This document shows, one piece after another, positions 1 through 18,930 of a stretch of 23,482 bases of DNA (its first letter is position 1; each line of letters starts with the position of its first letter). A program made the position numbers and the translations under genes. The notes below the pieces were generated by a model, which worked only from the letters and a program-made list of their open reading frames with translations, was not told the DNA's origin and did no database searches. This DNA is from a virus: IMG/VR virus record IMGVR_UViG_3300025127_000287, positions 1 through 23,482 of that record. The stretch is one strand, 5' to 3'.

Positions 1-2487
1 CATACCATTACTTACCCAAAATGACGCTTTTGACCAGTCCCAGTTAGCACCAGTAGCATCTGGACTTCCATATGAAGAATCATAATATCCGTTGGTATTG
101 AGTTTAGCCCGTACTCCTCCAATACTGTTATAATTACTTGCCTGTCCAGTTTTGGTATTGCTACCATTTCCATCTAAACTTCCAAACTTATATGAATCAG
201 CTTGTTGACTGTATAATTGAGTAGATGATGTTCCCGAAGTATCTGATTTAGGACCAGAAGGGCCAGGGCCAGCACCTGCCCAAGTCATTAAGGTACCATT
301 TCCTGTGTAAATAATTCTCTCCCTTACATTATATTGAGAACCTGTAGGTAAATTAGTATCATTTGCAACGTCAATTTCATGCCAAACAGGGTTACCATTC
401 ACTCTGTCCTCTGTTTCATCACAATATGCATATAATGGTGTTTTATATACATGTAATGCATCATAATCTGGAGATTTAAAACCACAGGCTATCCAAACTC
501 CTGGCCCCTTTTTTACACTTCCAACATATACTTCACCTGCCACATATGTTATATTATGAACTGCCTTCAAGTAATCTGTACCAGTGCCACTTATCTGTGG
601 TATAATTGATGGAGCGAAATCACCTGGAGAGTACCCTTGCATAATAGCAAATGAATCACTCCAAGTTTGTCCAGAATTATCTGAGAACAAAATTTTATTA
701 TCACCACCTGCCATAATTTTACTACCACCATCATTTGAAGTTAAACAATTAATTTGGTTAGCACCTGCTGCAGTGTCTGTGACACCCCAACAATTAACCC
801 ATCCCTCAAATGCTATGAGACCAGCTCCAGTTCCCACATTTCCTTCTGTAGCTCTATTTGTACGACCAAGGTTATTAGCTATGACAAAATATCCATCGCT
901 ATAACATACTGATGTTATAAATTGGTATTCAGAATTAGATGGTACAACTGCAGCACCTCCTATAACTCTACCAGCAGTATCTCTCTCAACAAATTTTGTA
1001 TCCCATTCATCAAAATCATTACCGAATGAACTTACATTATTACGATATAAGCATATATCACCATCAGGTTCTAGTGAACCAGCAGATGGTTCTCTTTCAC
1101 GTTCATATCCACCCATCAACCACAATGCATTATCAGGATCAGTATTTCCATTAGTAGCCCAATCAAAAACTATTGGTGGAAAATAATCAGTATCGAATTG
1201 TGATGAAGTATCATCAAATTCACTCCAAGTAAGACCATTATCCCTTGTAATCATTGCGGCCATATTTCTACGAGTTGTATACATATGAGACCATCCAGTA
1301 TTTGCATCAGAGTTATCCATCCCGTCACTCATTAAAAATCCCTCACCAAATGCAATCCATTCACCAGCAACATTGTGATTGGGTATTAAACATCTAACAC
1401 CTGGTGAATACATGGTATCTTTGTTTATCCACCAATGGTTTGGTATTCCATAACCTGTCGTTCTTACATAACTCTCCCTGAAAGGATCTGATGAAGCAGA
1501 AATATTTGGTATACCTTCTGTGTCTGTAAATGCAGCATCATCTGGTTTCATTATAAAAGTTGATGCACCATTATCAATTTCATAAACTCTTAGACTTGCC
1601 AAATTAAAATACTCACAGTTTTGTCCAACATGGATAATTCCAGTACTAGAAGAAGGGCCTCTTTTTGCCTGAAATTGAATGTAAACATTGCTTTCATCAG
1701 GGTAAAGAGTTTTTGACGGGTGATAAATACCAGATAGTTCAAAGGTTTGTTCGCCTTTAGGCAGACTATCACTGAGAGAGGCATTAGATTCATGCGGTAA
1801 ATTATATTCGGTTCCACCACCATTCCAAGTGCTACCAAATGTTCTTTCAAATGTACCATCCATTCTACTCATAGTAATTATAAACTGTGGCACTCCAGTA
1901 TTTGAAGTAGAAGAAGAGAGATAACGTCTTGCAACACTATATCTTTTAATACCAGTAGTAGAATATTCAATATCCCCTATCTTATATGAATATCCATCAT
2001 TGCCTGTAAATTCATCACCATAAACAAATTCAGCATAAACTGAGTTAGGTGGAACTGATCTCTCTGCATCACTATATCTTACACTACCATTCCATATTAT
2101 TTTCCTAGCAGTCACTGTTCCACCACCTGATGATACATTATACCATTCAGCATATTTATCAGCTACTGTACGATCTATTTGTTCAAATATGTAACCAGTT
2201 GGATTATCGCCATTATATGTAAAAACAAAATAACCGTATGCTAATATAGTACCACTTGACACTCTACCCGCAATTTGAGCATAAAATATACTATCTGGTT
2301 TCGTGCGTCTCATTTGGACAGCTGTCACCTGAAGGTAATCAGTTCTAGATTCATTAGACACACTTCCTGTGGCGGTTCTTATTTGTAATACTTTTGCTGG
2401 ATTTACTTGCCACTTTCTGGTTGGTGGAGTCCCACCAGGAGGATCTGATAAATTATATTGAACTATATCATTATAATTAATAGGCAT
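1..2487 (-). CDS. Partial tail fibre / receptor-binding protein with Asp-box (BNR) repeats, 3' end outside window
   Basis: I translated this frame by hand from the ATG at 2487. It stays open for 829 codons to base 1, so the C-terminus is missing. The start overlaps the stop of the upstream fibre gene as TAATG, with a good Shine-Dalgarno (GAGGTGG, 2495-2501) seven bases away. Two clear Asp-box motifs are present: TRDNGLTW at residues 414-421 and SDNSGQTW at 602-609, with a weaker SNDGG near 584-588. Asp boxes (SxDxGxTW) mark blades of sialidase-type beta-propellers, a fold often used for glycan binding or cleavage. The surrounding sequence is rich in Gly, Tyr, Trp and Asp, with alternating short strands. 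No signal peptide or membrane segment is seen. Its place at the end of the fibre block suggests a distal adhesin that contacts host surface sugar. That role is inference; I did not identify sialidase catalytic residues. Confidence 0.85.
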   Translation of the reverse strand, partial: MPINYNDIVQYNLSDPPGGTPPTRKWQVNPAKVLQIRTATGSVSNESRTDYLQVTAVQMRRTKPDSIFYAQIAGRVSSGTILAYGYFVFTYNGDNPTGYIFEQIDRTVADKYAEWYNVSSGGGTVTARKIIWNGSVRYSDAERSVPPNSVYAEFVYGDEFTGNDGYSYKIGDIEYSTTGIKRYSVARRYLSSSTSNTGVPQFIITMSRMDGTFERTFGSTWNGGGTEYNLPHESNASLSDSLPKGEQTFELSGIYHPSKTLYPDESNVYIQFQAKRGPSSSTGIIHVGQNCEYFNLASLRVYEIDNGASTFIMKPDDAAFTDTEGIPNISASSDPFRESYVRTTGYGIPNHWWINKDTMYSPGVRCLIPNHNVAGEWIAFGEGFLMSDGMDNSDANTGWSHMYTTRRNMAAMITRDNGLTWSEFDDTSSQFDTDYFPPIVFDWATNGNTDPDNALWLMGGYEREREPSAGSLEPDGDICLYRNNVSSFGNDFDEWDTKFVERDTAGRVIGGAAVVPSNSEYQFITSVCYSDGYFVIANNLGRTNRATEGNVGTGAGLIAFEGWVNCWGVTDTAAGANQINCLTSNDGGSKIMAGGDNKILFSDNSGQTWSDSFAIMQGYSPGDFAPSIIPQISGTGTDYLKAVHNITYVAGEVYVGSVKKGPGVWIACGFKSPDYDALHVYKTPLYAYCDETEDRVNGNPVWHEIDVANDTNLPTGSQYNVRERIIYTGNGTLMTWAGAGPGPSGPKSDTSGTSSTQLYSQQADSYKFGSLDGNGSNTKTGQASNYNSIGGVRAKLNTNGYYDSSYGSPDATGANWDWSKASFWVSNGM

Positions 2488-5400
2488 TAATGTTCCACCT
2501 CTTTAAGCATCATAGCATACTTTTTACCAGTTCGATTATTTATCATATAAACATTATCCTCACCTTCTTGTAAAGTCCAGTCACCCCAAGTTCCATCCAC
2601 ATCATTACCACCTGTGTCTTTTTTAGATTCATTTGAAAGTTGAAGGTCATTTACATAAATGTTGTTCCATCTTGCTGTCGTTGATCCTAAATCAATTGTA
2701 CCACTTGGTAGAATATTGTGATTGAAAACAAAATTTGTTCCATCAGAAAAACTTATTGTTGCATCTGGATCTAGTTTATTACTATTGAAGAAATATAGTT
2801 CATCTCCAACATAAGTATGCTTACCATTTATTACAGAATCAGTCCATGCCAAAACATCAAATCTTTTTGATGAAGATGATAAAGGCAATCCAGCAGAGTA
2901 ACCAGTAGCCATTGATAGTGTAATTTTACCACTATTATTTTGAGTTACCTCAATTTCATCTGTAGTTCCTGCTATTTCAATATCTTGATTTACTGGTGAA
3001 GATCCTATAGTTGATAATCTTAGTTTTACTGCACCATCATCATCAACAGCATTATAATTATATTCGGTATTGGTATTTGTAGAACTAAATGTAATCTCAT
3101 TCGTGGTAGAATTTGAAGTGATCGTCATACCACCACTCTGTTTAAAAGTCAATTGTTCAGTCGTAGAGTTTGATGTTACACTATTATCATCTGGTGTATT
3201 AATTGTTTTGTATGCATTAGTAACTGTATCACTACCTTGATCAGCACTAATCGTAAATCCACCAGTAAAGTCAGAGGCACTACCAGTTTTAGTAATTTTG
3301 ATGTTACTTCCTGCAGTTACCGTAACAGTATCGGTAGTTGGTTCAGAGGATATTAAATTTATAGTTCCTGTACCACTTCCAAAACTAGTACCTTGAGTTC
3401 CACCACCCTCAAGATCATATGTTGTTCCAGTTTGGTCAGAAGCATTAATAGTTAATGAACCATCATTATCTCTAGTTACGGTGCAGTAACTTCCACCATT
3501 TATTTGAATAGAATCTGCTTCAGTGTAAGTACTTCCAGTACCACCATTTGATTGGAGTGAAATTTTAGGATCAGCATCAGTTCCACCTGTTTGAGCACAC
3601 TCAAGTTTATATAAATTATTAGATGTGGTATCCGTGGAAGATACAGTAAGAGTTCCTGTACCCTGAGAAAGTGTAATATTAGAACCAGCAATCAATCGTA
3701 TATCATCATCACTTCCAGTGGATGGATTTAATCTTAATACTGCATCATTACCAGTTCCAGATCCAGTATTGGATCCATGATCTACTAATTCAAAATCATA
3801 GGTGGTGCTATCAAGATTTGTACCACTATAATATAATCCAGTTCCAAGACCTGCATGAGTTAATTTACCATTAGTATCATCCCATATTACAAGTTTATCA
3901 GCACCAGCATCATCAGCAGAAAGACTATTTGAACTTATATCGAAAACATCAGTAACACTGGCATCAAGAGACAATGTAGCTACAGTATTAGCAATGTCTC
4001 CCTTAAATGTTCCATAAAATTCTTTTGCATATACCTGATTCCATCGGTTACTTGCACTTTCTCCTATATTATATGTTTCATGAGCACTAGGATATAGATT
4101 ACTTGCTATATCAGCATTAAATGTTACGGTATCACTAGCATCTTCACCTAATGTTACATTTCCATCTACAACTAAAGTTCCACCAACATCTAAATTAATA
4201 CCAACAAATAAACTCTTGGCAATAGCAGCACCACCATCTATTGTGACTGATCCACCAGTGGTTGAATTAGTAGCATCAGTTGTATCATTAAATGTAGCAA
4301 CACCATTTACATCAAGATTATTGTTAACAGTTGATATACCAGATACATATAATTGCCCAGTAAGATTTGCACCAGTCCTTTGTATTTTTAACCATTCGGT
4401 AAATGCACCATTTTTATTATTACTAGCATAATCTCCAAACTGAATATATTCTGTTCCATTATCATCGGATGTGGAAATTCTTAAATAACCAGCATTACCA
4501 TCACCTTTCCATTCAATATGTGCATCATCATTTGTAGCAGTTCCTGGCCCAAATTTAATACCACCATCAGTCTTAGGTAACTTTAATGTTCCCGTTGAAG
4601 AATCAATCTCAAAATTAGTAGAGGTATAAATGACTTCACCAGTCGCAGTAGTATTATTACTATCAACAAAAGTTAAATAACCCGAACTTAGAGCATCATT
4701 CTTTGTGGTTTCTACATTATCAGCAACACCTTGTATATCACCAATAAGATTACCATAGATAGTGCCCCATGAGGTGGTAGCTGAACCTATATTTTGAGAA
4801 TTACTTCCTGGTATTAAATTTCCACCTGTATCAATGAGAAGTTTTTCTGAAGAACCTTGCCATAAACTTAATCTTTCTGATCTAACAAGAATATCTTTTG
4901 ATGCATTATTTGCACTATTACGACAGTCAATTGCAACACCGTTATAACTAGCATCAAAATCACCAGCATCTCTAACTTTTAAATATTCATCATCACTACT
5001 AGGTTTTACATTAAGAGTTCCTATTCCTGAAGAGGGTTCAGATCCAACGGATACTTGTCCACTTGAGTTGATGCGAAGTTTTTCAGTTGCTGATAATGCA
5101 CCATCATTAGTTGTTTTGAAAACGATACGTCCTGGCTTATCATTTGTTCCGTGATCTAAGTCCGCAACAAATTCAATTGCAGAAGATTCTTGTTGTGTTC
5201 CGTTACTATCATTTCCAGTTACTCTTAATGCACCAAGAACTTGATTTACTGAAACTGATGTATCATTTCTATGTAAGACTAAATTTGGACCAGCACCCGT
5301 CTTTCCATTAACCTGAAGCATTGTGTTGGTATCAAATACAGTTGTTGTATTAATACCAACTTCTCCACTTGATTTAATAGTTACTTTTGCCTCGTCATTA

Positions 5401-8400
5401 GTTAATAGTAATAAATCATGATTAGATACGGCACCAACTCTTATTGTTCCATCAGCATCAGATGCACCTAGAATGGCTTGATAAGTTGGTGATGCATATG
5501 TTCCTTGAGTTTTTACACGTAATGCTGCACCACCAGTTGCATGATGATTTCTGATATCTACGTAATTTACACCACCTGCAACATCTTTGTTAATATCGAG
5601 AACACATTGAGGATCATCGGTTCCGATACCAAGTCTATCGTTCGGTTCATCCCAATATAAAGTACTAGCAGCAGTTAAAACATCAGAATTATTGAAGAAA
5701 ACTTGTCCCGTTTCTCCAGGAACAATATAACTTCCCTCTAAATTATTAGCTTTAAGACTTCCAACTGCTAATATAGTATTATTATCCAAAAGTGCATTTG
5801 CTCCAGTTGGATTATCAGTTCCGATACCGACATGGCCATCTGATGTGATGCGAAGTGCTTCTTTTGGTGTACCACCACTAGTAACAGTTTTAAATAATAA
5901 ATCGTGTTTTGTATTCCCTACTGTAGGACCATTTGCTTCTATTGATGCGTATTGTCCATCAGATAAATCAGAACCAGTTGCTATAAATTGAATACCGACA
6001 CTTGAGTCACCATTTGTTCTATTTTGTAGTAATATTGGATATTGTTCTCCACCTGCTGTTTGAGTTATGTGTAACTTTTGTTTTGGATCAGATTCATTTA
6101 TACCAATTTCACCAGATGCAACAATATCAGTTACATCTAACTGATTATAAACAGTAACACCGACTCCAGATGTTTTTAATTTTGTATTTCCTGAATAGTT
6201 AAGTAAAACTGAACCATTTTCAGCAGCTTGAAGATAATATTCACTCATACCACTATTAGATAGTATAAGTGAATCTCCAGCTAAAAATAAACTCCCACCT
6301 GTTGGTAGATGATCTATTTTTGAGTGTGTACCATCAAAAAATATTTCTAAATCATCATCACTACCAAAAAGTATTCTTTTATTATCAGGAAGAAATACAC
6401 TTTTTCCAAATCCAACCGTACCACCGATTGATACCTTATCTACGAATGTGGCAGTTTCAGAAACATTCAGAACGTCAAGATCTGTTATACCATCTACATC
6501 TATATTGGAAGAGAATGTAGCAGTCTCGGCAACATTAAGAACATCTAAATCTGTTGTACCATCTACGTCTAAATTTTGATTTGCATTTATATTTCCATCG
6601 AATGTGGCAGTTTCAGAAACATTCAGAACGTCAAGATCTGTTATACCATCTACATCTAAATTAGACTTAGCTTCAATGTTACCAGTGAATGTAGAGACAC
6701 CAGATACAATAATACTACCAACACCAACATTAGCTTGAGCATCTATATTTCCTCTAAATGTAGAGCCTTTATCTACAATAAGTGTGTTAAATCTACCCTC
6801 ATCTAAAAATATATCATCTAGAACAAATAAATCTCCACCAACATATAAATCTCCACCAACGGTTGTTATTCCACCAGCAGCAGAAAGAGTAACTGCAACA
6901 CCAACTGATGTACCCGTGACTGATAATGCACCACCAACATTTACATTTTTACCAATATTTGCATTTTTAGCAACACCTAATCCACCATCACTAATTAATG
7001 CTCCATCTAAACTATTGGTGGAATCTGTATTATCATTAACCTCTACTTTATCATCAATACGAACCAAAGTACTAGCAGATGATAAAATTAAACCAGCACT
7101 TAATGTTTTTATTTCATTATTATTAGATCCTCCAATTTCAATATTTGCGATAGTACCAACACCCGAAGCAGCTAAATTTGTAGCAGTTATTAATCCAGTT
7201 ACATTCAATCCATCTGTAGTATTATATGATATATTATTACTAGTTTGAAGTTCTCCACCTGTTGAAGTAAAGACAACACGATCTCCTACTAAATCTTCAA
7301 TCTTTGCACTTGATGCATTTATACCATTATTAGCATCTATAACACCATTAAATGTGGAAAGACCAGATACAGTTAAAGTATTTGCACCTAATCCACCCTC
7401 GGTTACAGTTGTTAATCCAACAAAACTAGTAATACCTGTAAATATAGAATTACCTTCAACATCCAATAGACTTGATGGTTGAGTGCTACCAATACCTAAA
7501 CGGTTGTTAGTGGGATCCCATACAACTGCAATGCTCATCGCACCAGTTCCAGAATTATAATTTGAAGCTCCCCCTAAAATTCCACCTGTTTTATGGTATT
7601 GAAGAACAGTTACTGTTGCAGCAGCACCAGATACAATTTGATTTGGTCTTAACCATTCAACACCATACTCACCTTTTGTGAGAATATTTGCCTCTGCACC
7701 AAAATTACCAGTATAATCAATAATAGTACCTGCATCAACTAAATGTAGGTCACCATCTAATTTTATATTACCTTTAACATCTAAATTTTGTGTTGGATTT
7801 GTGGTTCCAATTCCAACTAATGAAGTACTTCCAGCACTAACAAGACGAAATACACTTCCACCAGCACCAACATTAAAAGTAGCACCTGATCCTACTATTG
7901 GAGCTATATGAATTCCAGTGGTTACACTAACAATACCAGTGTTATAATTGAATGTAAAATCAGATGATCCTGAAAAATCAGTAACACCCAGTCCTGATAC
8001 ATCTTTGGAAAATAATATTTCTTTATCATTAGTTGTAGGTCTAACTGTTATTGTAGCAATATTACCAGGACTTCCACCCTCAACAGATTCTTCTGCAATT
8101 GCGGTTACAATATTTCCTACAAAATTAAGTTGACTAATACTATCAGCAGTACCTACAATTACTCCTTCTTCAAATACACTAATAGAACCTGGTATTACTC
8201 CTCCACCTACGGGAATCCAATATCTATTTCCAGTGGTATCTCCATGAATTGTTATGGATTGATACCTTGTTCCAGCTGGAATACCAGCACTACTTCCACC
8301 ATTAACAATTCCTAAAGTTGCAGGATTACCTAAATTAGGTTCTGCATCACCCAATTCAAGATATGTATTCCTATAAGAAGATAACTTATCTTGAGGATTA

Positions 8401-8432
8401 ACCTTTACTTTACCACTAAGATACTTAGGCAT
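2487..8432 (-). CDS. Giant tail fibre-like structural protein (1981 aa)
   Basis: This is a very long virion protein of the type found in marine T4-like phages. From about residue 150 it is a string of Gly/Thr/Asn/Asp-rich beta-strand modules. Several carry the G-I-G-T-x-x-P...L-D-V motif common in phage fibres, near residues 206, 310, 770, 861 and 931. Around residues 580-680 there are three tandem copies of a DVDGxTDLDVLNVxETATF segment. A module near 680-760 (ILFGSDDDLEIFFDG) is also present in the 1137-residue protein. The last 70 residues contain SxxARWNxIYV, WGDWTLQEGEDNVYMINN and a TGKKY motif, resembling a conserved fibre C-terminus. The start overlaps the end of the preceding gene by 8 bases and the stop overlaps the next start by one base. 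It probably forms a trimeric fibre or a baseplate-periphery component. No catalytic domain was recognised. The length is several times that of an average tail protein, and homologous recombination between its repeats is plausible. Confidence 0.85.
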   Translation of the reverse strand: MPKYLSGKVKVNPQDKLSSYRNTYLELGDAEPNLGNPATLGIVNGGSSAGIPAGTRYQSITIHGDTTGNRYWIPVGGGVIPGSISVFEEGVIVGTADSISQLNFVGNIVTAIAEESVEGGSPGNIATITVRPTTNDKEILFSKDVSGLGVTDFSGSSDFTFNYNTGIVSVTTGIHIAPIVGSGATFNVGAGGSVFRLVSAGSTSLVGIGTTNPTQNLDVKGNIKLDGDLHLVDAGTIIDYTGNFGAEANILTKGEYGVEWLRPNQIVSGAAATVTVLQYHKTGGILGGASNYNSGTGAMSIAVVWDPTNNRLGIGSTQPSSLLDVEGNSIFTGITSFVGLTTVTEGGLGANTLTVSGLSTFNGVIDANNGINASSAKIEDLVGDRVVFTSTGGELQTSNNISYNTTDGLNVTGLITATNLAASGVGTIANIEIGGSNNNEIKTLSAGLILSSASTLVRIDDKVEVNDNTDSTNSLDGALISDGGLGVAKNANIGKNVNVGGALSVTGTSVGVAVTLSAAGGITTVGGDLYVGGDLFVLDDIFLDEGRFNTLIVDKGSTFRGNIDAQANVGVGSIIVSGVSTFTGNIEAKSNLDVDGITDLDVLNVSETATFDGNINANQNLDVDGTTDLDVLNVAETATFSSNIDVDGITDLDVLNVSETATFVDKVSIGGTVGFGKSVFLPDNKRILFGSDDDLEIFFDGTHSKIDHLPTGGSLFLAGDSLILSNSGMSEYYLQAAENGSVLLNYSGNTKLKTSGVGVTVYNQLDVTDIVASGEIGINESDPKQKLHITQTAGGEQYPILLQNRTNGDSSVGIQFIATGSDLSDGQYASIEANGPTVGNTKHDLLFKTVTSGGTPKEALRITSDGHVGIGTDNPTGANALLDNNTILAVGSLKANNLEGSYIVPGETGQVFFNNSDVLTAASTLYWDEPNDRLGIGTDDPQCVLDINKDVAGGVNYVDIRNHHATGGAALRVKTQGTYASPTYQAILGASDADGTIRVGAVSNHDLLLLTNDEAKVTIKSSGEVGINTTTVFDTNTMLQVNGKTGAGPNLVLHRNDTSVSVNQVLGALRVTGNDSNGTQQESSAIEFVADLDHGTNDKPGRIVFKTTNDGALSATEKLRINSSGQVSVGSEPSSGIGTLNVKPSSDDEYLKVRDAGDFDASYNGVAIDCRNSANNASKDILVRSERLSLWQGSSEKLLIDTGGNLIPGSNSQNIGSATTSWGTIYGNLIGDIQGVADNVETTKNDALSSGYLTFVDSNNTTATGEVIYTSTNFEIDSSTGTLKLPKTDGGIKFGPGTATNDDAHIEWKGDGNAGYLRISTSDDNGTEYIQFGDYASNNKNGAFTEWLKIQRTGANLTGQLYVSGISTVNNNLDVNGVATFNDTTDATNSTTGGSVTIDGGAAIAKSLFVGINLDVGGTLVVDGNVTLGEDASDTVTFNADIASNLYPSAHETYNIGESASNRWNQVYAKEFYGTFKGDIANTVATLSLDASVTDVFDISSNSLSADDAGADKLVIWDDTNGKLTHAGLGTGLYYSGTNLDSTTYDFELVDHGSNTGSGTGNDAVLRLNPSTGSDDDIRLIAGSNITLSQGTGTLTVSSTDTTSNNLYKLECAQTGGTDADPKISLQSNGGTGSTYTEADSIQINGGSYCTVTRDNDGSLTINASDQTGTTYDLEGGGTQGTSFGSGTGTINLISSEPTTDTVTVTAGSNIKITKTGSASDFTGGFTISADQGSDTVTNAYKTINTPDDNSVTSNSTTEQLTFKQSGGMTITSNSTTNEITFSSTNTNTEYNYNAVDDDGAVKLRLSTIGSSPVNQDIEIAGTTDEIEVTQNNSGKITLSMATGYSAGLPLSSSSKRFDVLAWTDSVINGKHTYVGDELYFFNSNKLDPDATISFSDGTNFVFNHNILPSGTIDLGSTTARWNNIYVNDLQLSNESKKDTGGNDVDGTWGDWTLQEGEDNVYMINNRTGKKYAMMLKEVEH
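6443..6658 (-). repeat. Three ~60-bp direct repeats inside the 1981-aa fibre gene
   Basis: A 60-base segment at 6443-6502 recurs identically at 6599-6658. A diverged third copy lies between them at about 6513-6571. All three are in frame and encode DVDGxTDLDVLNVxETATF. Exact identity between the outer copies with a diverged copy in the middle suggests recent duplication or gene conversion within the fibre. Confidence 0.9.
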
Positions 8433-10716
8433 TACTATTCTCTAGAATACTTGCAATAAATTCCATTTGAAGTGGTGCAACCAATCCACCAGATGATGAT
8501 ACTCCAACATATGCTGAAAATGTATTATAATCAGCTCTGGTAATTGCGGTGGTTCCACTTCCACTCAATGTTCCATCATATAAAGGATCAGTAGCTCTTG
8601 GATATGTATGTTCTGTTTGATTCAAATCTTGAGTACATGTAAACACCAAAGAATTTTGTGCTATGGTAATTTTATCAGTTGATCTTCTCATACCAGCTGT
8701 TGCCGATTGTAATGTATGTGTATATGCACCACCACCTTTAATCACAGCCCTTGTAACAGAATTATCAACTGCCGATACAAAAGTGTGTTTATTTGTATTG
8801 GTAGAAGGAATTTTACTTAAAACTTGAACTTGAAACGTATTTGTCGTTGTATTACCAATTCCTAACCATGTATCACTAGCAAAATCTGTTATTCTTGGAT
8901 ATGTTTTTTCTGATTTAATTCCTATTTCACCACAATAATCACAACTAAATGTTAAAGAATTATCTGCAATTTTAATGGCATCTCCATTATATAATCCATG
9001 ATCAGGAATTGTTACAGTCATGATACCAACAACTGGATCATAAATTGCATCGGTAATTGTTAAACCTGTTTGAGGTACAAAAGTATGAATTCCTGATGTT
9101 ATATCTTGTGCAGTGCCAACACCTAAAGTGATTGTAGTCTCAGAAACTGCAGTAATTGGAACTGCAGTATCATATGCTGGATCATTATCAGCAGCACCGC
9201 CATATCCAGTTAATCTTGGATACGTATGAACTCCTGCATGATTATCTTTTGAACATGTAAATTCAAGAGATTGATTTGCTAATTTTACATATTCTTTTAC
9301 CTTTTTTAGACCACCAGGTGTAGATTTTACAAAAGTATGTATAGATGTATTTGAAATCGCACCTTGACCAATAACATCTAACTTAAACGTGTTATCATCA
9401 ATACGGGTAATTCCTGTAAATATACCACTAATAGGATCTGATGGTGTTGGAAACTTTCTTTCTACAGTGCCACCACCAGAAGGATAAGTAAATGTTAAAG
9501 AATTATCATCAATCTTAACTAAATCTCCAGTAGAAAATCCATGAGCAGAAATTGTGCACGTAAGAATACCTGCAGTTGATATTGGACTGTATAATGCATC
9601 TACTATAGTATTACTTGTAGGGCCTTCAAATTTATCAGCATCTGATCCAATGATAAATGTTGAAAATCCAACTAAAGGATCATATATTACATCAGTTGGA
9701 TTACTATAAAATATTGGTGATTTACCAACATCAATTTCAAATGTATTATTTGTAGTATTTCCAACCGATACCCATGTAGCTCTTATTGGATCTGATGATC
9801 GTGGATATCTTTTTACTCTATCATTACCGTCCATACTACATGTAAATGATAAAGAGTAATCATCAAACTTAACCAAGTCTCCTGTGGCATATTTGTGCCC
9901 ACTTAAAGTGATTGTCATAATACCAACATTTCCATCATATACCGCATTAGTTGGTGTAAATGGTCCACCATCAGAACCATCTGGTTGAACTATATTAGTG
10001 CAATCAGCTGTAAATGTAACAATACCAGTGACAGGATCATAATCTGCATCAGATGGTTTATATTTCTGTGATGTACCGACTAATGTAATAGCATCTTTTT
10101 CGGCACGAACAAAAGTATGAACTGCAGGTCTATAAAAATGATTAATTTCATTAGAACCACCAACATTAGTGGAAAATTCTAATGTATTAATAACATTCTC
10201 TACAATATAAGATTTATTAGGATCTGGAAAAATAGTGGTGGTAAGACCATAAGACCTATCACTTTTACAATTAAATGCAATTCCTCCAATTGTTATTTGA
10301 TCACCCACGGAAAATCCATGAGGGCCTAATGTAGAAATTGTTGTAATTCCAGTTGGTTCTTCATATAATACATTAGTGACTGTTGCCAGTCCAGATTGAG
10401 TTCCTGTAATGAATAAACTATCAACAACTAATGGTGTTTTTTCTAACACCAATCTACCATCAATCACAATTAAAGCATCATTAGGTGGAATTTCTACATC
10501 TTTTAAAACTCTAATATCTCTAGTATTACCCGTACTTCTTGATTTTCTTCTTTGAAAAAATGTTACAGTGGGAAATGATTGACCAATTCCAACATTAGCA
10601 ACTTGAGCATATAGCACCAATGCAGAAGTTCCTGTGGGAACTTCATACACTTTTTGCTCTCCTGGTGAAACAGGAACAGCAAGTGATATAAATTTATTGA
10701 CTGGTGCTATTGCCAT
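8425..10716 (-). CDS. Repeat-built virion structural protein (763 aa), probable baseplate/fibre component
   Basis: The N-terminal ~105 residues form a separate, probably beta-sandwich domain. The rest consists of about six divergent repeats of 60-100 residues, at roughly 113-205, 256-335, 372-465, 476-548, 555-650 and 682-741. The repeat pattern is xYDPxxGIMTxTIxxHGxxxGDxVKIxDNSLTFxC, then a TYPR-x-(T/S)DP segment, then NTFxxxV and HTFV. Each full unit reads like a beta-domain with a conserved HG turn, a DNSLTF strand and a Cys. Known marine myoviruses carry similar repeat proteins among their virion structural proteins, but a precise function is not known to me. The start lies one base after the stop of the 1137-aa gene (TAA-T-ATG), and the last 8 bases overlap the 1981-aa gene. 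This close packing implies co-translation with both neighbouring fibre-type genes. No enzymatic motif is visible. Confidence 0.85.
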   Translation of the reverse strand: MAIAPVNKFISLAVPVSPGEQKVYEVPTGTSALVLYAQVANVGIGQSFPTVTFFQRRKSRSTGNTRDIRVLKDVEIPPNDALIVIDGRLVLEKTPLVVDSLFITGTQSGLATVTNVLYEEPTGITTISTLGPHGFSVGDQITIGGIAFNCKSDRSYGLTTTIFPDPNKSYIVENVINTLEFSTNVGGSNEINHFYRPAVHTFVRAEKDAITLVGTSQKYKPSDADYDPVTGIVTFTADCTNIVQPDGSDGGPFTPTNAVYDGNVGIMTITLSGHKYATGDLVKFDDYSLSFTCSMDGNDRVKRYPRSSDPIRATWVSVGNTTNNTFEIDVGKSPIFYSNPTDVIYDPLVGFSTFIIGSDADKFEGPTSNTIVDALYSPISTAGILTCTISAHGFSTGDLVKIDDNSLTFTYPSGGGTVERKFPTPSDPISGIFTGITRIDDNTFKLDVIGQGAISNTSIHTFVKSTPGGLKKVKEYVKLANQSLEFTCSKDNHAGVHTYPRLTGYGGAADNDPAYDTAVPITAVSETTITLGVGTAQDITSGIHTFVPQTGLTITDAIYDPVVGIMTVTIPDHGLYNGDAIKIADNSLTFSCDYCGEIGIKSEKTYPRITDFASDTWLGIGNTTTNTFQVQVLSKIPSTNTNKHTFVSAVDNSVTRAVIKGGGAYTHTLQSATAGMRRSTDKITIAQNSLVFTCTQDLNQTEHTYPRATDPLYDGTLSGSGTTAITRADYNTFSAYVGVSSSGGLVAPLQMEFIASILENSNA

Positions 10717-10717
10717 A

Positions 10718-13700
10718 TTATCTCAATGCTAATATTAAGGGTGTTATTTGTGCCTGAAGTGCTCTGTTAAAATCTCTTCCTCGAATTGTTGATGTGGTTT
10801 GATCAATTGTTAAACCATCACCAATACGGAAGTTACCTTTTTGATCTGTACTTGTGAAAGGCACTTGACCACCATTAATTGCAACAATTTCATTTTCAGG
10901 AACAGGTACTCCTCCTTGGAAGGGGTTTGCTCTATTTATGTCTGTACCAGCACCAACATACTCAAAGGAATGAGAACTAGTGATAATTCTACTAAGTCTT
11001 ACAAATTCAGTTTTTGTTGCTCCAGAAACTGGGTAGGGTATAAATTCATTAAACGTTACATCACATAATCCAGTTGTAGGATCTGGTTCCGTCGAACTTT
11101 CAACAGTAAATAATATTGGATCCATATCAGCGATTGCTGTTGCGGAACCACCACCAGAAATATCAACATTTATTGCTTGATTTGGAAGAAAATTTCTACC
11201 ACTGTTAATAACATCAATTGAAGTAATTGTTCCTGCAGCACTCACATTTGGAGAAAATTCAGGAAGAATTACCTCTGGCCCTAATGGAGTATTGACAGTA
11301 ACAATAGGAGGTGCTCCTGCACTATATTCCCCATTTACTCCCCCATTAGTAACAGTAATACTTCTAACTAATTGAAGAGGTTGTGTAACTATACCAGAAA
11401 CAGTTGTATCATCAAAATCCGCTAAATTAATATGGAAATAAACACCCTGACCATCAAATGGTTTTCTAAAATTATTTTCATCATCAACAACACCATTTAT
11501 ACTCACCACATCTAATTCTGCAGGAATATCCTCTAATGTAAATCCTGAAAATTCTACACGACCAAAACCATCAGCAACCAAACCAAAAGCACCGAATGAT
11601 GAATTAGAGTTTGTTAAATCACATTGGCCACCACCCACAGCAGATATACCAACTTCAGATGCAATTGTAAATATAGAAACTAATTGAGCATATGCATTAT
11701 TAGAAACAGAAACACCAATACCTGCTTCATTATATTGTGTGAATGAATCACACACCATAGATTTTAAATCTTGACCTAAATTATTTGTTCCTGTAAAATC
11801 AGCTTCAGCATAATCACCATTAATCTTCATACCAATACTACTTGTCATAAAATTAGTACAGTTACGAATATATGGAGATCTCCATCTACCAGCAGCACCT
11901 TCATTCGCAGGACCAAGAGCTATGTATCCAGTCACTGCCTGAAAGTCTACCCCACCAGCAATTCCTGATTCTGTTGGGGGAAATGCAACAGCACCACAAT
12001 TAGAATGATCATATGAAACTCCACTCTGACCATCATTAATTGGGCCTGAAAAGTTGACATTTTGTATTAGACAACCTCTTCTAACATGAAAAACATCTTT
12101 ATTTCTATTTTCAGGAACTATGGTTACAAGTCTTAAGTCTTCGCCAGAAACTGAAACATCAGTTCTTAATCCAATTGGATTATTCTCAACATAAGTACCA
12201 GAACGAATAATAATAGTATCCCCTTCCTGTGCTACTGCTGCAGCTGCACCAATTGTCCTTTTTGCATCACCTTCAAGTAATCCACTATTAGTATCAATAC
12301 CATCAACTGAAACCCAAATAGCATTTTCTGTTTCAACACCAGAAGGTCTCCATGATACACCAGAACCAACAGATGCCAAACGATAATCCGTTTTAGCAAT
12401 ACCTACACCAGTATTGTTATTACTATCTCTTAAGAAAGACTTTAAAAATAAAGTCTTGGCAATTCCCACATCATCTTTAAATGTGGCAATTCCCACAACT
12501 GTAGAAACACCTAGAACTTCTAAATCATCTTTTATTTCCAAACTTCCTACAACAGAAGCCCCAATCCCTGTAGTTCTGAACTTAAGTACATTATCAAAAT
12601 ATAATGCAACATCTGAATTAGGACTAGCTACAACAGCATTTTTACTGTTAGATAAAATACTTACGTTGGCTGAACCAGTGGTATATATTAATAAATTTTT
12701 ATTATCACTTAATATTCTTGAAGTATTATCTGAAGATTGATGGAATATTTCTAAATCCCCATCACCACCAAAAAGTGCTTTTTTATCATCAAGTAAAAAT
12801 AAATCACCACCTATTCTTAGATTTTTTACAATACCAACACCACCATCAATCTGAACTGAAGCAGATGTAGTGCTTGATGCATCAGTTACATCATTAAATG
12901 TTACTAGTCCATCAACATCAAGTGTACTGTTTAAAGTTGTACCACCATCAACATCTAATCCTGCATTTAAGGTTGTATTACCATCAACATCAAGTGTACT
13001 GTTTAAAGTTGTACCACCATCAACATCAAGTGTATTGTTTAAAGTTGTACCACCATCCACATCAAGTGTACTGTTTAAAGTTGTAGCACCATCAACATCT
13101 AATCCTGAATTTAAGGTTGTATTACCATCAACATCTAAGGTGCTATCAAACTCAACACCAAGAGTTGCATGAACAGTTCCCGATATGTCTAAATCAGTTG
13201 ATGGACTACTATTTTTAATACCAACCTTAGTCATCCTGTAGATTGAAGACGTATTAGTAGAATCAACATGACCCCATAAATCAAAAGTAGTAACCGTTGC
13301 TAAACCACTACCTCCAGGTGTAGAAGTATCAGCTGCTGTAGGAATAAGTGTATCGACTCCCAAACCAAAACTATTTTTCTGGTTAAAGTTTATTGTTGTG
13401 AATGATTGTGCAGCACCTGCGGATGGAATATCTATCCCTTCATCTTGAATAAAAATACCCTCTTTAAACTCTGGTGTAAGTGGCACCCATCTTATTCCAT
13501 TTTCATCTCGTCTCATCCAATAATTATTAACACCTGGAGAACCTGATGAATCGTAAATATTTCTAGATACTCTTATACTTCCATCAAAATCTGCTTTTAA
13601 TTGACCATGTTCTGTATTATTAATACCAAAATCACCAGGACTTTCAGTTCCAACACCCAATGTACCAACACCTGTAACCACAAAGGAATTAGTACCAGAA

Positions 13701-14131
13701 TTTATCTGAAATCTTTGTGTTGGATTTGTAGTTGCAATGCCAACAAATCCTTCAGGATTTATAATTAATCTTTCTACATTATTGGTGTTTATAGCAAAAG
13801 TATTTTCAAAAGGAAAACCAAATTTAGTATCTAATACCTTTCTACCAGTTTTAGGATTTATTGGTTCTTCACCTTCAGTAAAATCATTGTTGTGATAAAT
13901 CCAATCTTCTATATGTACTTCATCACTAAAAGTTGCTATGCCAGAAAAAGAAGAACCTGCTGAAACGGTAAGATCCTTTATTAATATCTTTTCAAAAAAT
14001 GACTCATATACATCTAATTTTCTAATAGTTAAATCATCATTACTAAAATCATAATCCAGTGATCCCGTAATATAAACGTTCTCAAATATGGAATTACCTG
14101 ATTGATTAGAGTCAGCGTTAACGTTAGCCAT
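10718..14131 (-). CDS. Large baseplate/fibre protein with 12-residue repeats and beta-helix domain (1137 aa)
   Basis: Visible regions, in order, are as follows. Residues 1-330 are beta-rich modules including GIATTNPTQRFQI at 131-143 and a Trp-rich stretch (NYWMRRDENGIRWVP) near 203. Residues 330-413 are seven perfect 12-residue units of the form STLDVDGxTTLN. Residues about 415-530 are IDGG-x-GI and ALFGGDGDLEIF modules shared with the 1981-aa fibre. Residues about 604-880 start IWVSVDGIDTNSG and continue GDTIIIRSGTYVEN, a pattern of right-handed beta-helices (pectin-lyase-like). Residues 1055-1137 end with NPFQGG, FTSTDQKGNFRIGDGL and a Leu-rich tail. I infer a trimeric baseplate-periphery or tail-fibre protein, perhaps a gp10-like adaptor, but no T4 orthologue is certain. 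The start is two bases past the previous stop and no Shine-Dalgarno is evident, so coupled translation is likely. Confidence 0.85.
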   Translation of the reverse strand: MANVNADSNQSGNSIFENVYITGSLDYDFSNDDLTIRKLDVYESFFEKILIKDLTVSAGSSFSGIATFSDEVHIEDWIYHNNDFTEGEEPINPKTGRKVLDTKFGFPFENTFAINTNNVERLIINPEGFVGIATTNPTQRFQINSGTNSFVVTGVGTLGVGTESPGDFGINNTEHGQLKADFDGSIRVSRNIYDSSGSPGVNNYWMRRDENGIRWVPLTPEFKEGIFIQDEGIDIPSAGAAQSFTTINFNQKNSFGLGVDTLIPTAADTSTPGGSGLATVTTFDLWGHVDSTNTSSIYRMTKVGIKNSSPSTDLDISGTVHATLGVEFDSTLDVDGNTTLNSGLDVDGATTLNSTLDVDGGTTLNNTLDVDGGTTLNSTLDVDGNTTLNAGLDVDGGTTLNSTLDVDGLVTFNDVTDASSTTSASVQIDGGVGIVKNLRIGGDLFLLDDKKALFGGDGDLEIFHQSSDNTSRILSDNKNLLIYTTGSANVSILSNSKNAVVASPNSDVALYFDNVLKFRTTGIGASVVGSLEIKDDLEVLGVSTVVGIATFKDDVGIAKTLFLKSFLRDSNNNTGVGIAKTDYRLASVGSGVSWRPSGVETENAIWVSVDGIDTNSGLLEGDAKRTIGAAAAVAQEGDTIIIRSGTYVENNPIGLRTDVSVSGEDLRLVTIVPENRNKDVFHVRRGCLIQNVNFSGPINDGQSGVSYDHSNCGAVAFPPTESGIAGGVDFQAVTGYIALGPANEGAAGRWRSPYIRNCTNFMTSSIGMKINGDYAEADFTGTNNLGQDLKSMVCDSFTQYNEAGIGVSVSNNAYAQLVSIFTIASEVGISAVGGGQCDLTNSNSSFGAFGLVADGFGRVEFSGFTLEDIPAELDVVSINGVVDDENNFRKPFDGQGVYFHINLADFDDTTVSGIVTQPLQLVRSITVTNGGVNGEYSAGAPPIVTVNTPLGPEVILPEFSPNVSAAGTITSIDVINSGRNFLPNQAINVDISGGGSATAIADMDPILFTVESSTEPDPTTGLCDVTFNEFIPYPVSGATKTEFVRLSRIITSSHSFEYVGAGTDINRANPFQGGVPVPENEIVAINGGQVPFTSTDQKGNFRIGDGLTIDQTTSTIRGRDFNRALQAQITPLILALR
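12893..13144 (-). repeat. Seven in-frame 36-bp tandem repeats
   Basis: The stretch is exactly 7 x 36 bases and encodes seven 12-residue units (S/N/A)(T/G)LDVDGxTTLN inside the 1137-aa protein. Several copies are almost identical at DNA level. Copy number could change by slippage or recombination without breaking the frame, lengthening or shortening a fibre shaft. Confidence 0.95.
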
Positions 14132-14669: not shown

Positions 14670-14702
14670 TTAACTCACATAATCTCTAAGTTGATTAAAC
14701 AT
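14670..14702 (-). CDS. Possible ten-codon leader ORF between the 695-aa and 177-aa genes
   Basis: The stop of the 695-aa gene overlaps an ATG (TAATG at 14700-14704) that opens a ten-codon frame, MFNQLRDYVS. Its TAA stop lies two bases before the ATG of the 177-aa gene. It would let terminating ribosomes step to the next gene, whose own Shine-Dalgarno is weak. It may be only a chance frame; no other evidence for expression is visible. Confidence 0.3.
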   Translation of the reverse strand: MFNQLRDYVS

Positions 14703-16789
14703 TAGTATCCTCCTCCGTATCCACTCCCACTTGATCCCGAAGACCCGCTATCACTAGAAGTGTTATCAGAAACAGAAGTGTTACTCTGTCCAGTCGTTTG
14801 CTGACTTGTGTTGTTAGTTGTGTTAGTTTGAGTAGTGCTACTTGTAGTAGTCTGGGTTGTGGTGCTGGAAACATTTGTCTGTGGGGATGAAGATACTGTC
14901 ATTGTAGACGCAACACTAACTGCTGTTCCAAAACTTTGTTCTGGAGTATCATATATTATTTCATGAGGTAAGGTTGTGTGTACGACACCAACCATCTTTA
15001 CACCAGTTGTTGGATGGAAATGGAATGGGCCATAATATGAAACACCATTTACATAACCGACTAACTCTTTCTTACCACTAATACAATCTATAACTTGAAC
15101 AACTTCACCTTGAGGTCTTGTTTTAGACATTATTGGTCTTAAGATAGCACCAACTCCAGTATCACTGTTAATATTTAGATTAGGTAAATCGTCATAAGGA
15201 ATATCATTAATCATTTTACCTCCTACAATTCTACCATCAATTATGTTCAAATTAAAATTTTCTAAAGTATCATTTTCGGTATATCCTTCACCTTGATTTT
15301 CAATAATAACTTTACTTATGAATAAAGGTACCTCATCATCTTCTACGGGATAATTTTCACCAGAAGTGAGTATTGTTATACTAGAGAGTTGTCCATATGT
15401 AGGAGATTGTGGATTAGAGTCTATGTGTGCTCTAGCATATGCTCCAAACCCCTGATTACAATTATCATTAAACTTTACTATTGGATCTTCCGTGTATCCA
15501 CTTCCAGGATCAGTTATTTCAACACCAACAATACTTGCAGTTCTTTTTACTGCAGCAAATATATCTTCAGTATCTAATCTGTTAATAAATTTTCCAAAAA
15601 TGATTTTGCCAGCTGCACCCACACCTTCACCACCAAATATATCAACAGTTGGAGCTCCACATTTAAAAGGATTTCCAGTATTACAAGGACTTAAAGATGT
15701 TGTATTTGACGAAGAACCTCCAAAAATATCCCAAGAACCATATTTTTCTTCAAAAGGAGTTTTAATTTTATTTGATGCATTAGAAAGAGTATTTAAACTA
15801 TTACCATCAAAAACATTTTTAAAATTTGATTTAAGATCACCGACTCCCTTAACCATTTGGTTACCTTTACCAATTATGGTTTTATCAGTGGAAGAACAAT
15901 TTTGTTTGTCATCACAACTAAGGAAAGCATCTACTCTTTTAAAAACATCTACACCACCAAGCACAAATTCCTGTATATCAAAGTCTATTCCAAACTTTCC
16001 TGTAAGAGGTGTTAAAAGTGGAGTTATGGCATCATCTATGGTATTTGCGATGTCATGAGTAACAGCACCCATCATTTGTTCCACAGCACATGCAGGAACA
16101 TTAGTTGCATTTTTCATTGCTGATGTGAGTAAATCACTTAAAGTACCAGTCAAGGCATCCATTATTTTTGGGCCTACACAATTGACTCCATCTAATAATG
16201 AACTAATGGAGGGCAGAAGACCCTCTTGCTCTGTTTTAATTAACTCAATAGCTTTACTATAAGGTATCAATCCCAGATCTGCTTGTGTTTGATAAGATGT
16301 TGCTATTCCATCAAATCCAGAACTCATCAATCCTGCCATTTTATCATTTAAAGAACCAGTTATTTTATTAACATAACCATTCATACCACGACTCATTACC
16401 TTAGACATTTGTTTAATCTCATTAGGTAAATTTAGTGATGAACTTCCAGGAGCATTAATTTTACTAAAAAAATTCTTCAAATTAGCTTCCATTTGATCAA
16501 ATGTGCTATCTTTACATGCATTTGGGGAAACAATATGAAATCCAGTGGTAATGCTATCAGGCACTGGTTTCGTTCTATGAGTTTTAATTAAATTAAATCT
16601 TTTTATTTGTTCTTCTGAAGAAAGTAAATCATTATCTATTGGTGAAACATCTTTAAAAACTTCTGGATATGTATTTTTATATTTTCTTATAGCATTTTGT
16701 ATTTTTTCGGAGGGAGGATTTGCTTCTATTAAATTTTTAATAGTGTTAATAGTTGTTTGATCTAAAATTTCTGGTGCTGGTGTAGTCAT
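14702..16789 (-). CDS. Virion structural protein of unknown role near the baseplate hub (695 aa)
   Basis: I do not recognise a T4 orthologue. Residues 1-350 are largely helical and polar, with scattered cysteines (about 92, 204, 234, 292, 298). Residues 420-515 hold three related beta segments with GSGYTEDP, GENYPVED and GEGYTEND turns, also seen as SGRNFLPN in the 1137-aa protein. Residues 585-614 contain YYGPFHFHP and MVGVVHTTLPHEIIYDT, a His-rich block that looks conserved. The last ~65 residues are Ser/Thr/Gln/Asn low complexity ending in GSGYGGGY, resembling a flexible linker. The start has the strongest Shine-Dalgarno in the window (GGAGGA, 16797-16802, seven bases upstream) and a possible late promoter just before it. 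Lying between the OB-fold hub protein and the spike-like protein, it could occupy the place of the gp5 middle region or be a hub-associated factor. Confidence 0.8.
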   Translation of the reverse strand: MTTPAPEILDQTTINTIKNLIEANPPSEKIQNAIRKYKNTYPEVFKDVSPIDNDLLSSEEQIKRFNLIKTHRTKPVPDSITTGFHIVSPNACKDSTFDQMEANLKNFFSKINAPGSSSLNLPNEIKQMSKVMSRGMNGYVNKITGSLNDKMAGLMSSGFDGIATSYQTQADLGLIPYSKAIELIKTEQEGLLPSISSLLDGVNCVGPKIMDALTGTLSDLLTSAMKNATNVPACAVEQMMGAVTHDIANTIDDAITPLLTPLTGKFGIDFDIQEFVLGGVDVFKRVDAFLSCDDKQNCSSTDKTIIGKGNQMVKGVGDLKSNFKNVFDGNSLNTLSNASNKIKTPFEEKYGSWDIFGGSSSNTTSLSPCNTGNPFKCGAPTVDIFGGEGVGAAGKIIFGKFINRLDTEDIFAAVKRTASIVGVEITDPGSGYTEDPIVKFNDNCNQGFGAYARAHIDSNPQSPTYGQLSSITILTSGENYPVEDDEVPLFISKVIIENQGEGYTENDTLENFNLNIIDGRIVGGKMINDIPYDDLPNLNINSDTGVGAILRPIMSKTRPQGEVVQVIDCISGKKELVGYVNGVSYYGPFHFHPTTGVKMVGVVHTTLPHEIIYDTPEQSFGTAVSVASTMTVSSSPQTNVSSTTTQTTTSSTTQTNTTNNTSQQTTGQSNTSVSDNTSSDSGSSGSSGSGYGGGY

Positions 16790-16796
16790 AATTATT

Positions 16797-16818
16797 TCCT
16801 CCGTATTTGATATTTATT
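16797..16818 (-). promoter_or_regulatory. Strong Shine-Dalgarno and possible late promoter for the 695-aa gene
   Basis: On the minus strand the order is AATAAATA (16811-16818), one base from T4 late consensus TATAAATA, then GGAGGA (16797-16802), then seven bases to the ATG at 16789. The Shine-Dalgarno is clear. The promoter is tentative because it overlaps the previous gene's double stop codons. Confidence 0.5.
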
Positions 16819-17533
16819 AGAACATAGTAAATTCTTCATCAGTAGCAGCTTCAGCAAATTCATCTCTTGTACCTTCTAATGATCTTTCTTCAGCAAGTGC
16901 TTGATCAATATCTGCTTGCATATCATCATCTGCTGATGATATCGTAGTTGGTGGGGGAGGAATTACACCAACTTTGTTTTCATTAGGATTTAATCCCTGT
17001 TGAGCCATCTGTTCTATGGGTGGTTGTCTTTTATTATTTGATGATGATACAGCTCTAGGAGAATTTAACCCAATATTTTCATTTGTTTCTTCATTTTGAT
17101 TAGCAATAGCATTAAGTAAATTACCTTTCTTAGTTGATCCAACAAATCCAGTTTTTGAATCAAATCTACCTTTACCATATCTAATACCCGAAGATCTACC
17201 TAAAACATTCAATATTATAGGATTTTGTTTTCGATCACCATCTAAAAATTTACCAAGAACAACATCACCTTGAGATAGTGCTGGATCTTTTTTTCTACCT
17301 GCTGCACCACTTCCATCAGAGACACCAAGAGCAACCAGAGCAAAAACTATTTCTTCATCTTTTATTGAACTATCTAAAGGATGATATCCCATGATTGCGA
17401 CTCTAAATCTATATCCAAAACCAGAATTACCATCAATTTGATTTTTTTGAGATTCATAAGGTAAAATAATACCAATCCATTCATGAGTTGCAAGTCCATA
17501 AAAGTCATGATCTGATACAGAATTATACAACAT
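16817..17533 (-). CDS. gp5-like baseplate hub OB-fold protein (238 aa), no lysozyme domain
   Basis: Residues about 15-113 look like the N-terminal OB fold of T4 gp5 and related hub proteins: EWIGIILP, then YRFRVAIMGYHP, an EEIVFALVAL strand, GVSDGSGAAGR, QGDVVLGKFLDGD and NPIILNVLG. T4 gp5 continues with a lysozyme domain and a C-terminal beta-helix. Here the rest is a short GFVGSTKKGN segment, a Pro/Asn/Gln-rich linker (about 160-200) and an acidic helical tail (about 200-238). No lysozyme domain is visible. The ATG overlaps the stop of the gp27-like gene as TAATG and is preceded by GGAGGT at 17542-17547, eight bases away. It should bind the gp27-like ring and carry the spike. The gp5 assignment rests on the short OB segment and the neighbour order. 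Confidence 0.7.
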   Translation of the reverse strand: MLYNSVSDHDFYGLATHEWIGIILPYESQKNQIDGNSGFGYRFRVAIMGYHPLDSSIKDEEIVFALVALGVSDGSGAAGRKKDPALSQGDVVLGKFLDGDRKQNPIILNVLGRSSGIRYGKGRFDSKTGFVGSTKKGNLLNAIANQNEETNENIGLNSPRAVSSSNNKRQPPIEQMAQQGLNPNENKVGVIPPPPTTISSADDDMQADIDQALAEERSLEGTRDEFAEAATDEEFTMF

Positions 17534-18930
17534 TATCTTCTACCTCCACGTCTAGTTCTACTTTTATTACTAAATTTAGTTGATGCATTAGATTTAGATG
17601 AATTTTTAGAAGCATGCAATCCATAGGAATCACGTACTAAAGTTAACGAAGTTACAGATTTTTCTGATTCAAAATAATGGCATAAAGATGAAATAATATA
17701 AACACCACTTTGTTTTTGATCTGGCCCTTGTTCTTTTTTATCAGTGATATCTTCAATTTCAAGACGTAAAGTATTACCTGCTTCCAGATCAGTATTACAA
17801 GGAATTGTTATAGAGTGTTTTTGTGAAAAAAGCATATTATATCTAGTGGTTCCAGCAGCATAGTATAACTCAGGACTATTATTAGGATTTATACTTTCAG
17901 ATTCACCCCCGATATTTAATACTGCAGTTTGTACTCTATGAAATTTATTTCCTTGTTCAAAATTTTCAGACAATATTTTAGGAATTTCTGGTTTTTTTCC
18001 TAGCGTAGAAAATTTTGGATCTTTATATAATCTTCCATCATCAACAGTAACATCAATTTCTGTAAACTTGTAAGTTTGGGGATTGAAAAATATAGTTTTA
18101 TTTGCATATACACCAGATCTAATTTGAGACATTAAATTCTGATCCTTTATTACTTGTAAAGATGCTATCTTATAATCATTACTTTCATCCCTAGTTTGTG
18201 ATGTTGATTGAACTTTACCATCATAATGATATGTTTTGTCATATGGATCATTATTAATAATTGAATCAACAGAAACATAATTGAAACCACTTTTTGTTTC
18301 ATAAGCAAAATAACCAGGATTTGAAGTATTTTCTGGTACTGATTGTTTTGCAAGCATAAGAATTAAATCAAAAGGCCTTTTTGTCATTCCAGCAAAGGAG
18401 TATGGATTACTACAATCATCAATATTAATTCTATCTTTATCTAATTTAAATTCATTTTTAAGAATTTTTTCTATAGAATTTGTAATTTTACCTGTGTAAT
18501 GTTTAGTAAGTCTTTTTGTATTATTTAATAATCCTATTCTAGATATAAATCTTATTTGAATAATTTCTGAAGTTGATTTCTTATCTATAATTTGAACTTC
18601 ATTAACATATAATCTTTTAAATGGATCTTTTTTAGATGAAAAATCCAATCCCTCTCCTATAGGATCCTCAATTTTTATCAAGAGTTCACAACCTACTTCC
18701 AATGGAAGTGAAGTATGTAAAGATCCAAGTCTCTCTTGCGTATCATCTTTAGACTTAGTAACTGCACTTGTGCTTACGATTGTAACTATTCCTGTTATAA
18801 ATGGTGATAATACATTTTCATAATAGTAAAAATTAGCAATTCTAAATTGACCCTGTGCAAAATCTACTTCATTTTTACCATCAGCAGATATGATTTTAAA
18901 TATACTATATTTTGATGATTGCACTGACAT
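17533..18930 (-). CDS. gp27-like baseplate hub protein (465 aa)
   Basis: This is probably the trimeric hub ring joining the tail tube to the spike. The N-terminus (SKYSIFKIISADGKNEVDF) starts a beta-barrel region. Residues about 85-135 (CELLIKIEDP, KRLYVNEVQIIDKK, IIQIRFISRIGLLNN) match the strand pattern of gp27/gpD hub proteins. The C-terminal part contains IPCNTDLEAGNTLRLEIED, SGVYIISSLCHYF and SVTSLTLVRDSYG. T4 gp27 ends its fold in the same way, with a PGxxI turn, FYVDEVIHEL and a SVTHLYM-type strand. The final 25 residues are a basic Ser/Arg/Lys tail (KSRTRRGGRR). T4 gp27 is about 390 residues, so this one is longer. The start overlaps the upstream stop as TAATG with GAGGA at 18938-18942. 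The next gene, the OB-fold gp5-like protein, is the expected partner. Confidence 0.75.
   Translation of the reverse strand: MSVQSSKYSIFKIISADGKNEVDFAQGQFRIANFYYYENVLSPFITGIVTIVSTSAVTKSKDDTQERLGSLHTSLPLEVGCELLIKIEDPIGEGLDFSSKKDPFKRLYVNEVQIIDKKSTSEIIQIRFISRIGLLNNTKRLTKHYTGKITNSIEKILKNEFKLDKDRINIDDCSNPYSFAGMTKRPFDLILMLAKQSVPENTSNPGYFAYETKSGFNYVSVDSIINNDPYDKTYHYDGKVQSTSQTRDESNDYKIASLQVIKDQNLMSQIRSGVYANKTIFFNPQTYKFTEIDVTVDDGRLYKDPKFSTLGKKPEIPKILSENFEQGNKFHRVQTAVLNIGGESESINPNNSPELYYAAGTTRYNMLFSQKHSITIPCNTDLEAGNTLRLEIEDITDKKEQGPDQKQSGVYIISSLCHYFESEKSVTSLTLVRDSYGLHASKNSSKSNASTKFSNKSRTRRGGRR

Follow-up and report, generated by a model that had tools for sequence, protein, structure and literature searches.

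Related host-recognition systems

In pelagimyophages and cyanomyophages, a host recognition cluster that is hypervariable and includes tail fibers has been described between VrlC and gp14 (PMC7029224). In the cyanophage P-SSM2, a run of fiber-type and other genes lies between two flanking fiber genes. At the protein level, the receptor-binding protein Gp45 of phi11 is reported to contain a five-bladed propeller in which a sugar could be held (PMC4901313), and the Asp-box beta-propeller family, in which the boxes lie between strands 3 and 4, includes the GH33 sialidases and Vps10 (PMC2716378). BNR/Asp-box genes have been mentioned in the phage OVC8 (PMC4802629) and in the Nostoc cyanophages A-1 and N-1 (PMC4916379), so that such a gene has precedents in phages and even among cyanophages.

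We analyzed a 23,482-base stretch of viral DNA (IMG/VR record IMGVR_UViG_3300025127_000287, positions 1 to 23,482), hereafter the window. In a megablast search, 52 phage records gave matches; by name they divide into Synechococcus (40), Cyanophage (8), Marine virus (2) and Prochlorococcus (2), and the best match was Marine virus AG-345-L05, a single-cell-derived record filed under Kyanoviridae. The source is best explained as a marine T4-like myovirus with cyanophages such as P-SSM2 among its relatives. These phage names and the P-SSM2 order of the fiber genes make a picocyanobacterial host likely, with SAR11 as a possible alternative.

An open-ended gene behind three fiber genes

Compared by tblastn, the fiber genes of the window occur in the same order as those of P-SSM2 (PSSM2_021 to PSSM2_033 compared), as follows.

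2487..8432, minus strand: upstream long tail-fiber protein, 1981 aa; N-terminus matches PSSM2_023 (51% over 132); mosaic, with a diverged middle
8425..10716, minus strand: tail-fiber/structural protein, counterpart of PSSM2_022 (47% over 338 columns)
10718..14131, minus strand: tail-fiber protein, counterpart of PSSM2_021 (51%)

The gene studied here directly follows these three genes, in agreement with the first-pass annotation, which had placed it at the end of the fiber block. Elsewhere in the window, as in the related contig G001, the P-SSM2 hub gene PSSM2_019 corresponds to two separate genes: one at 16817-17533 (minus strand, 238 aa) matches its N-terminus (40% over 118), and one at 14702-16789 (minus strand, 695 aa) matches its later part (28% over 484).

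The gene itself starts with an ATG at 2487 and runs on the minus strand through 829 stop-free codons to window base 1, where it is open, so that the uninterrupted frame described earlier at the window edge was confirmed on the minus strand. Two complete homologues were reached through a search with the upstream fiber gene rather than with the window gene: L004 (IMGVR_UViG_3300020468_000095, 2002-4764, 920 aa, 77% identical to the window protein) and L003 (IMGVR_UViG_3300030108_005600, 16045-19068, 1007 aa, 55% identical). Both follow the same fiber gene as the window gene does, and in all three cases the start codon and the stop codon of that fiber gene share one base. Since both homologues terminate in GGRIAFIDIPE, the window copy lacks about 80 (as judged from L004) to about 165 (from L003) residues. 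The parts of the gene are as follows.

1..2487, minus strand: open-ended gene for a candidate host-recognition protein, 829 codons; about 80-165 C-terminal residues missing relative to the two homologues
2368..2487, minus strand: residues 1-40, N-terminal stretch, proposed as attachment part and recombination edge; DNA 99% identical to L003 and 68% to L004
1558..2487, minus strand: residues 1-310, N-terminal part, proposed beta-sandwich from a low-confidence strand prediction
1..1455, minus strand: residues 345-829, C-terminal part with Asp-boxes, incomplete; proposed irregular beta-propeller
1225..1248, minus strand: Asp-box 1, TRDNGLTW, residues 414-421; fits the Asp-box consensus
661..684, minus strand: Asp-box 2, SDNSGQTW, residues 602-609; fits the Asp-box consensus

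Near its C-terminus, the L003 homologue contains an extra 70-85 or so residues (alignment columns 930-1015) that are absent from L004; this stretch has GSGYSVG-like wording and by eye resembles part of the 695-aa hub-region protein of the window.

Using the pattern (S/T)-X-(D/N)-X-G-X-(T/S)-(W/F/Y), taken from a survey of Asp-boxes (PMC2716378), we found three matches in the window protein. The third, TGNDGYSY at residue 161, has no counterpart in either homologue. The other two, already named as Asp-boxes by the first-pass annotation, occur at the same alignment columns in both homologues and thus in all three members; they lie 188 residues apart within one region of about 500 residues. At least two matches arose in 39 of 20,000 composition shuffles of the window protein (0.035% of 20,000 with a pattern allowing only W at the last position), and the consensus was absent from the 12 other window proteins (6,865 aa). 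A single Asp-box is unremarkable because about 5% of shuffles contain one or more.

A small orphan family

A profile built from the three members matched 3 of the 22 records examined, namely that of the window and the two contigs that supplied the homologues. No phage match came from the window protein and gene (tblastn and distant blastn) or from the L004 homologue (tblastn), and PDB sequences likewise gave none for the window protein. The full-length protein had no match in Pfam at E 1, in PHROG at 0.1 or in NCBIfam at 1. Among viral contigs, one stretch fitted the search pattern of the window protein and none was confirmed; alignment-based scans, including those with a small neighboring protein, recovered the same two contigs and nothing further. 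In the genome_contigs scan, 40 stretches matched the pattern and none was confirmed. Distant relatives may escape such scans, which depend on exact short patterns.

In contrast to L003 and L004, P-SSM2 yielded no homologue of the open-ended gene by tblastn with either the window protein or the L004 homologue, and the fetched P-SSM2 stretch contained no frame of at least 150 codons with two Asp-boxes. Among the titles and opening abstract lines listed for the literature on cyanophage tail fibers, propellers, Asp-boxes and hypervariable islands, none describes this family. The three proteins form a small orphan family that is new, and the gene is of an ordinary, expected kind.

An exchangeable slot between two fiber genes

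The slot occupied by this family is flanked by the same two fiber genes in G001, G002, P-SSM2 and AG-345-L05, and its content differs among them. In both homologue contigs, the homologue is followed by a protein of 192-194 aa, a second small protein, a 216-aa 2OG-Fe(II) oxygenase and then a fiber that starts MPLNKLDNFIKN. The second small protein has 289 aa in L004, and its gene in the other contig is interrupted where bases are unknown; in G001 (L035, around 16650-16690), unknown bases and a repeated stretch lie in this gene, where an assembly join is probable. The downstream fiber of L004 matches those of G001 (L035, 98%), the record L005 (65%), AG-345-L05 (50%) and P-SSM2 (PSSM2_033, 49%).

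What precedes this downstream fiber varies: a collagen-repeat protein together with 2OG oxygenases in AG-345-L05, a Collar-domain protein and oxygenases in L005 (the upstream fiber of which is only weakly related), and genes annotated as collar, fiber and hypothetical in P-SSM2. The collagen-repeat gene of AG-345-L05 (L002) is located at 25009-26580 (Pfam Collagen, E 7.6e-54). Two further records, L011 and L012, nearly the same in sequence there, have a weakly related fiber followed by an oxygenase (scanned in the L011 copy), and neither matched the downstream fiber of L004. Genes for 2OG-Fe(II) oxygenases thus recur beside the variable slot; the P-SSM2 gene there is annotated as piuC. Their locations are as follows.

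L004 6274-6924; L035 17074-17724; L011 10962-11567: 2OG-Fe(II) oxygenase genes
L002 22675-23271 and 23711-24367; L005 15635-16282 and 16248-16814: 2OG-Fe(II) oxygenase genes

The family is therefore encoded among tail-fiber genes, and the slot that it occupies can hold different contents. This slot resembles the host recognition cluster between VrlC and gp14 (PMC7029224) in being a variable block with tail fibers among conserved structural genes, and the two may or may not share a location. Residues 1-310 also resemble, weakly, the small stand-alone proteins encoded beside the homologues: z exceeded 3 in 4 of 9 pairwise comparisons, with 0.3 to 2.4 in the others, and a profile comparison gave P 0.01 and a probability of 4%, which is suggestive.

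Divergence and mosaicism of the gene

The expectation that close relatives would show hypervariability was borne out. Compared with G001 by tblastn, the window protein was 48% identical and the adjacent fiber 64%, whereas the 11 other window proteins were 89-100% identical. The gene is also mosaic. Informative sites favored L003 over L004 by 37:0 in nucleotides 1-120, were mixed in nucleotides 121-870 (48:100), and favored L004 in nucleotides 871-2487 (42:408; Fisher p 9e-34 against the first 120). At the other end, L003 and L004 are 95-97% identical across their last 210 aligned nucleotides. We read this pattern as exchange of the gene by recombination between conserved edges, because unequal rates by themselves would not make one relative replace the other as the nearest.

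Divergence and mosaicism thus exceed those of the neighboring structural genes, with the adjacent fiber mosaic too. In this long fiber gene (2487-8432), stretches of 88-98% and of 48-70% DNA identity lie side by side; identity to L003 is 48-70% at its nucleotides 1663-3582 and about 4951-5391, which are flanked by stretches of 85-100%.

Fold of the C-terminal part

The first-pass annotation had proposed a sialidase-type propeller. AlphaFold models had mean pLDDT values of 29.9 (single sequence) and 31.5 (L004 homologue, three sequences), too low for a fold search. The Pfam BNR model (PF02012) matched the C-terminal segment of the window protein with E 0.0043 and 17.3 bits, the L003 homologue with 14.1 bits (E 0.049) and the L004 homologue with 8 bits (E 4.9), so that none of the three members reached the curated cut-off of 27. 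In PDB profile searches, the whole and C-terminal alignments had no match up to E 10, and the N-terminal alignment had two chance-like matches (E 0.62 and 0.88).

For each of the three members, the C-terminal part gave an internal-repeat score that did not stand out: 15, 92 and 74 of 100 shuffles, respectively, reached it. For Asp-box proteins, blade conservation is given as very low except in the boxes, and repeated boxes as most prominent in propellers (PMC2716378); because blades are scarcely conserved beyond the boxes, the negative repeat test is weak evidence and not decisive. We also divided the C-terminal part into seven blades by eye. In this division, 4 of 21 pairs lay above the 95th percentile of column-shuffled controls (Mann-Whitney p 0.013, with non-independent pairs) and the best control (23.0) exceeded the best observed pair (21.0); given this weak excess, the division was not relied on as support for a propeller.

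Based on the two conserved copies of the consensus, which link the protein to the Asp-box beta-propeller family, the C-terminal part is probably an Asp-box propeller. It differs from that family in its BNR match below the cut-off and its lack of a FRIP-like motif, and the fold is a prediction. Of the earlier proposal, the propeller is plausible, with the conserved boxes and the BNR match below the cut-off in its favor and the missing repeat signal against it. The sialidase assignment fared differently. The FRIP motif is the usual marker of GH33 sialidases, and no FRIP-like motif was present in any of the three members, on which ground GH33-type membership was rejected; the start of the C-terminal part reads RCLIP in all three. 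The members scanned had no glycoside hydrolase family match. The three members share ten Arg, 16 Tyr, 7 Glu and 18 Asp at fixed positions of the C-terminal part, which supplies candidates for a sialidase site with its Arg triad, Tyr/Glu nucleophile and Asp acid/base; with ten invariant Arg, an Arg triad is possible.

The sugar contact that had been deduced from the Asp-boxes does not follow from them. The survey argues that these boxes do not themselves bind carbohydrate and are located opposite the active face (PMC2716378), which makes the step from box to sugar invalid. That the ligand may be a sugar is suggested instead by the fact that phage receptors are often sugars.

Proposed function and alternative explanations

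Its place beside the fibers, its variability and its exchange together point to host recognition. We therefore favor, with somewhat more confidence than doubt, the reading that the frame covers the gene of a tail-fiber-associated, recombining host-recognition (receptor-binding) protein with a C-terminal Asp-box propeller, from its start to between four-fifths and nine-tenths of its length. In this model, the conserved first 40 or so residues would dock the protein on the fiber or baseplate complex encoded just upstream, the beta-rich N-terminal part would serve as a spacer, and the C-terminal part of about 500 residues would fold as an irregular Asp-box beta-propeller. Variable loops on its top face may bind a molecule of the host-cell surface, probably a polysaccharide. 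Recombination at the conserved edges could then swap the C-terminal part between phages and change host recognition. The suggestion of a probable glycan-binding adhesin is thus supported in part, by the place of the gene and its hypervariability, and falls in its Asp-box basis for glycan contact. The likeness to phi11 Gp45, which belongs to a different phage type, is one of proposed function only and is not accompanied by a PDB profile match (PMC4901313).

Host recognition could also be performed by a protein without a propeller, the Asp-boxes being isolated hairpins in a beta-sandwich or other beta domains. The negative repeat test would agree with this, as would the presence of single Asp-boxes in other folds, including jelly-roll and Ig-like ones (PMC2716378). 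However, the two boxes lie 188 residues apart in a single region of about 500 residues, and the prominence of repeats in propellers, together with the very low blade conservation reported there, deprives the repeat test of decisive force; we consider this explanation unlikely. A virion-borne glycosidase or depolymerase, in which the Asp-box propeller would hold an active site and trim the surface polysaccharide of the host, appears rather improbable. Asp-box propellers are mostly glycosidase enzymes according to the same source, and the invariant Arg, Tyr, Glu and Asp of the C-terminal part leave room for catalytic residues, but the FRIP-like motif is missing from all three members and no glycoside hydrolase family was matched among those scanned.

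The indirect nature of all evidence on function leaves some room for a structural accessory or other non-receptor gene, such as a decoration or connector protein, with variability resulting from hitch-hiking or relaxed constraint. The adjacent fiber gene is mosaic as well, and hypervariable regions were reportedly not preferentially mutated during host adaptation of S-TIM4 (PMC6224464), which counts against the host-recognition reading. Both Asp-boxes and long blocks are nevertheless retained across copies that are 55-77% identical, and collar, collagen and fiber-type genes occupy the slot in relatives. We regard an accessory role as very unlikely.

Returning to the recombining host-recognition protein, a wider arrangement can be put forward only tentatively. 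The gene may belong to a receptor cassette of the plug-in type in P-SSM2-like ocean phages, in which the N-terminal dock of about 40 residues and the conserved C-terminal end would frame a swapped Asp-box propeller head, and small stand-alone proteins of the N-terminal-domain type encoded alongside would be optional parts of the recognition tip.

For most T4-like phages that infect marine picocyanobacteria, neither the receptors nor the receptor-binding proteins are known. This study adds a protein family that has no match above the curated cut-off or below E 0.001 in Pfam, PHROGs or NCBIfam. As a compact candidate with a clear pattern of exchange, it offers a specific protein for binding tests.
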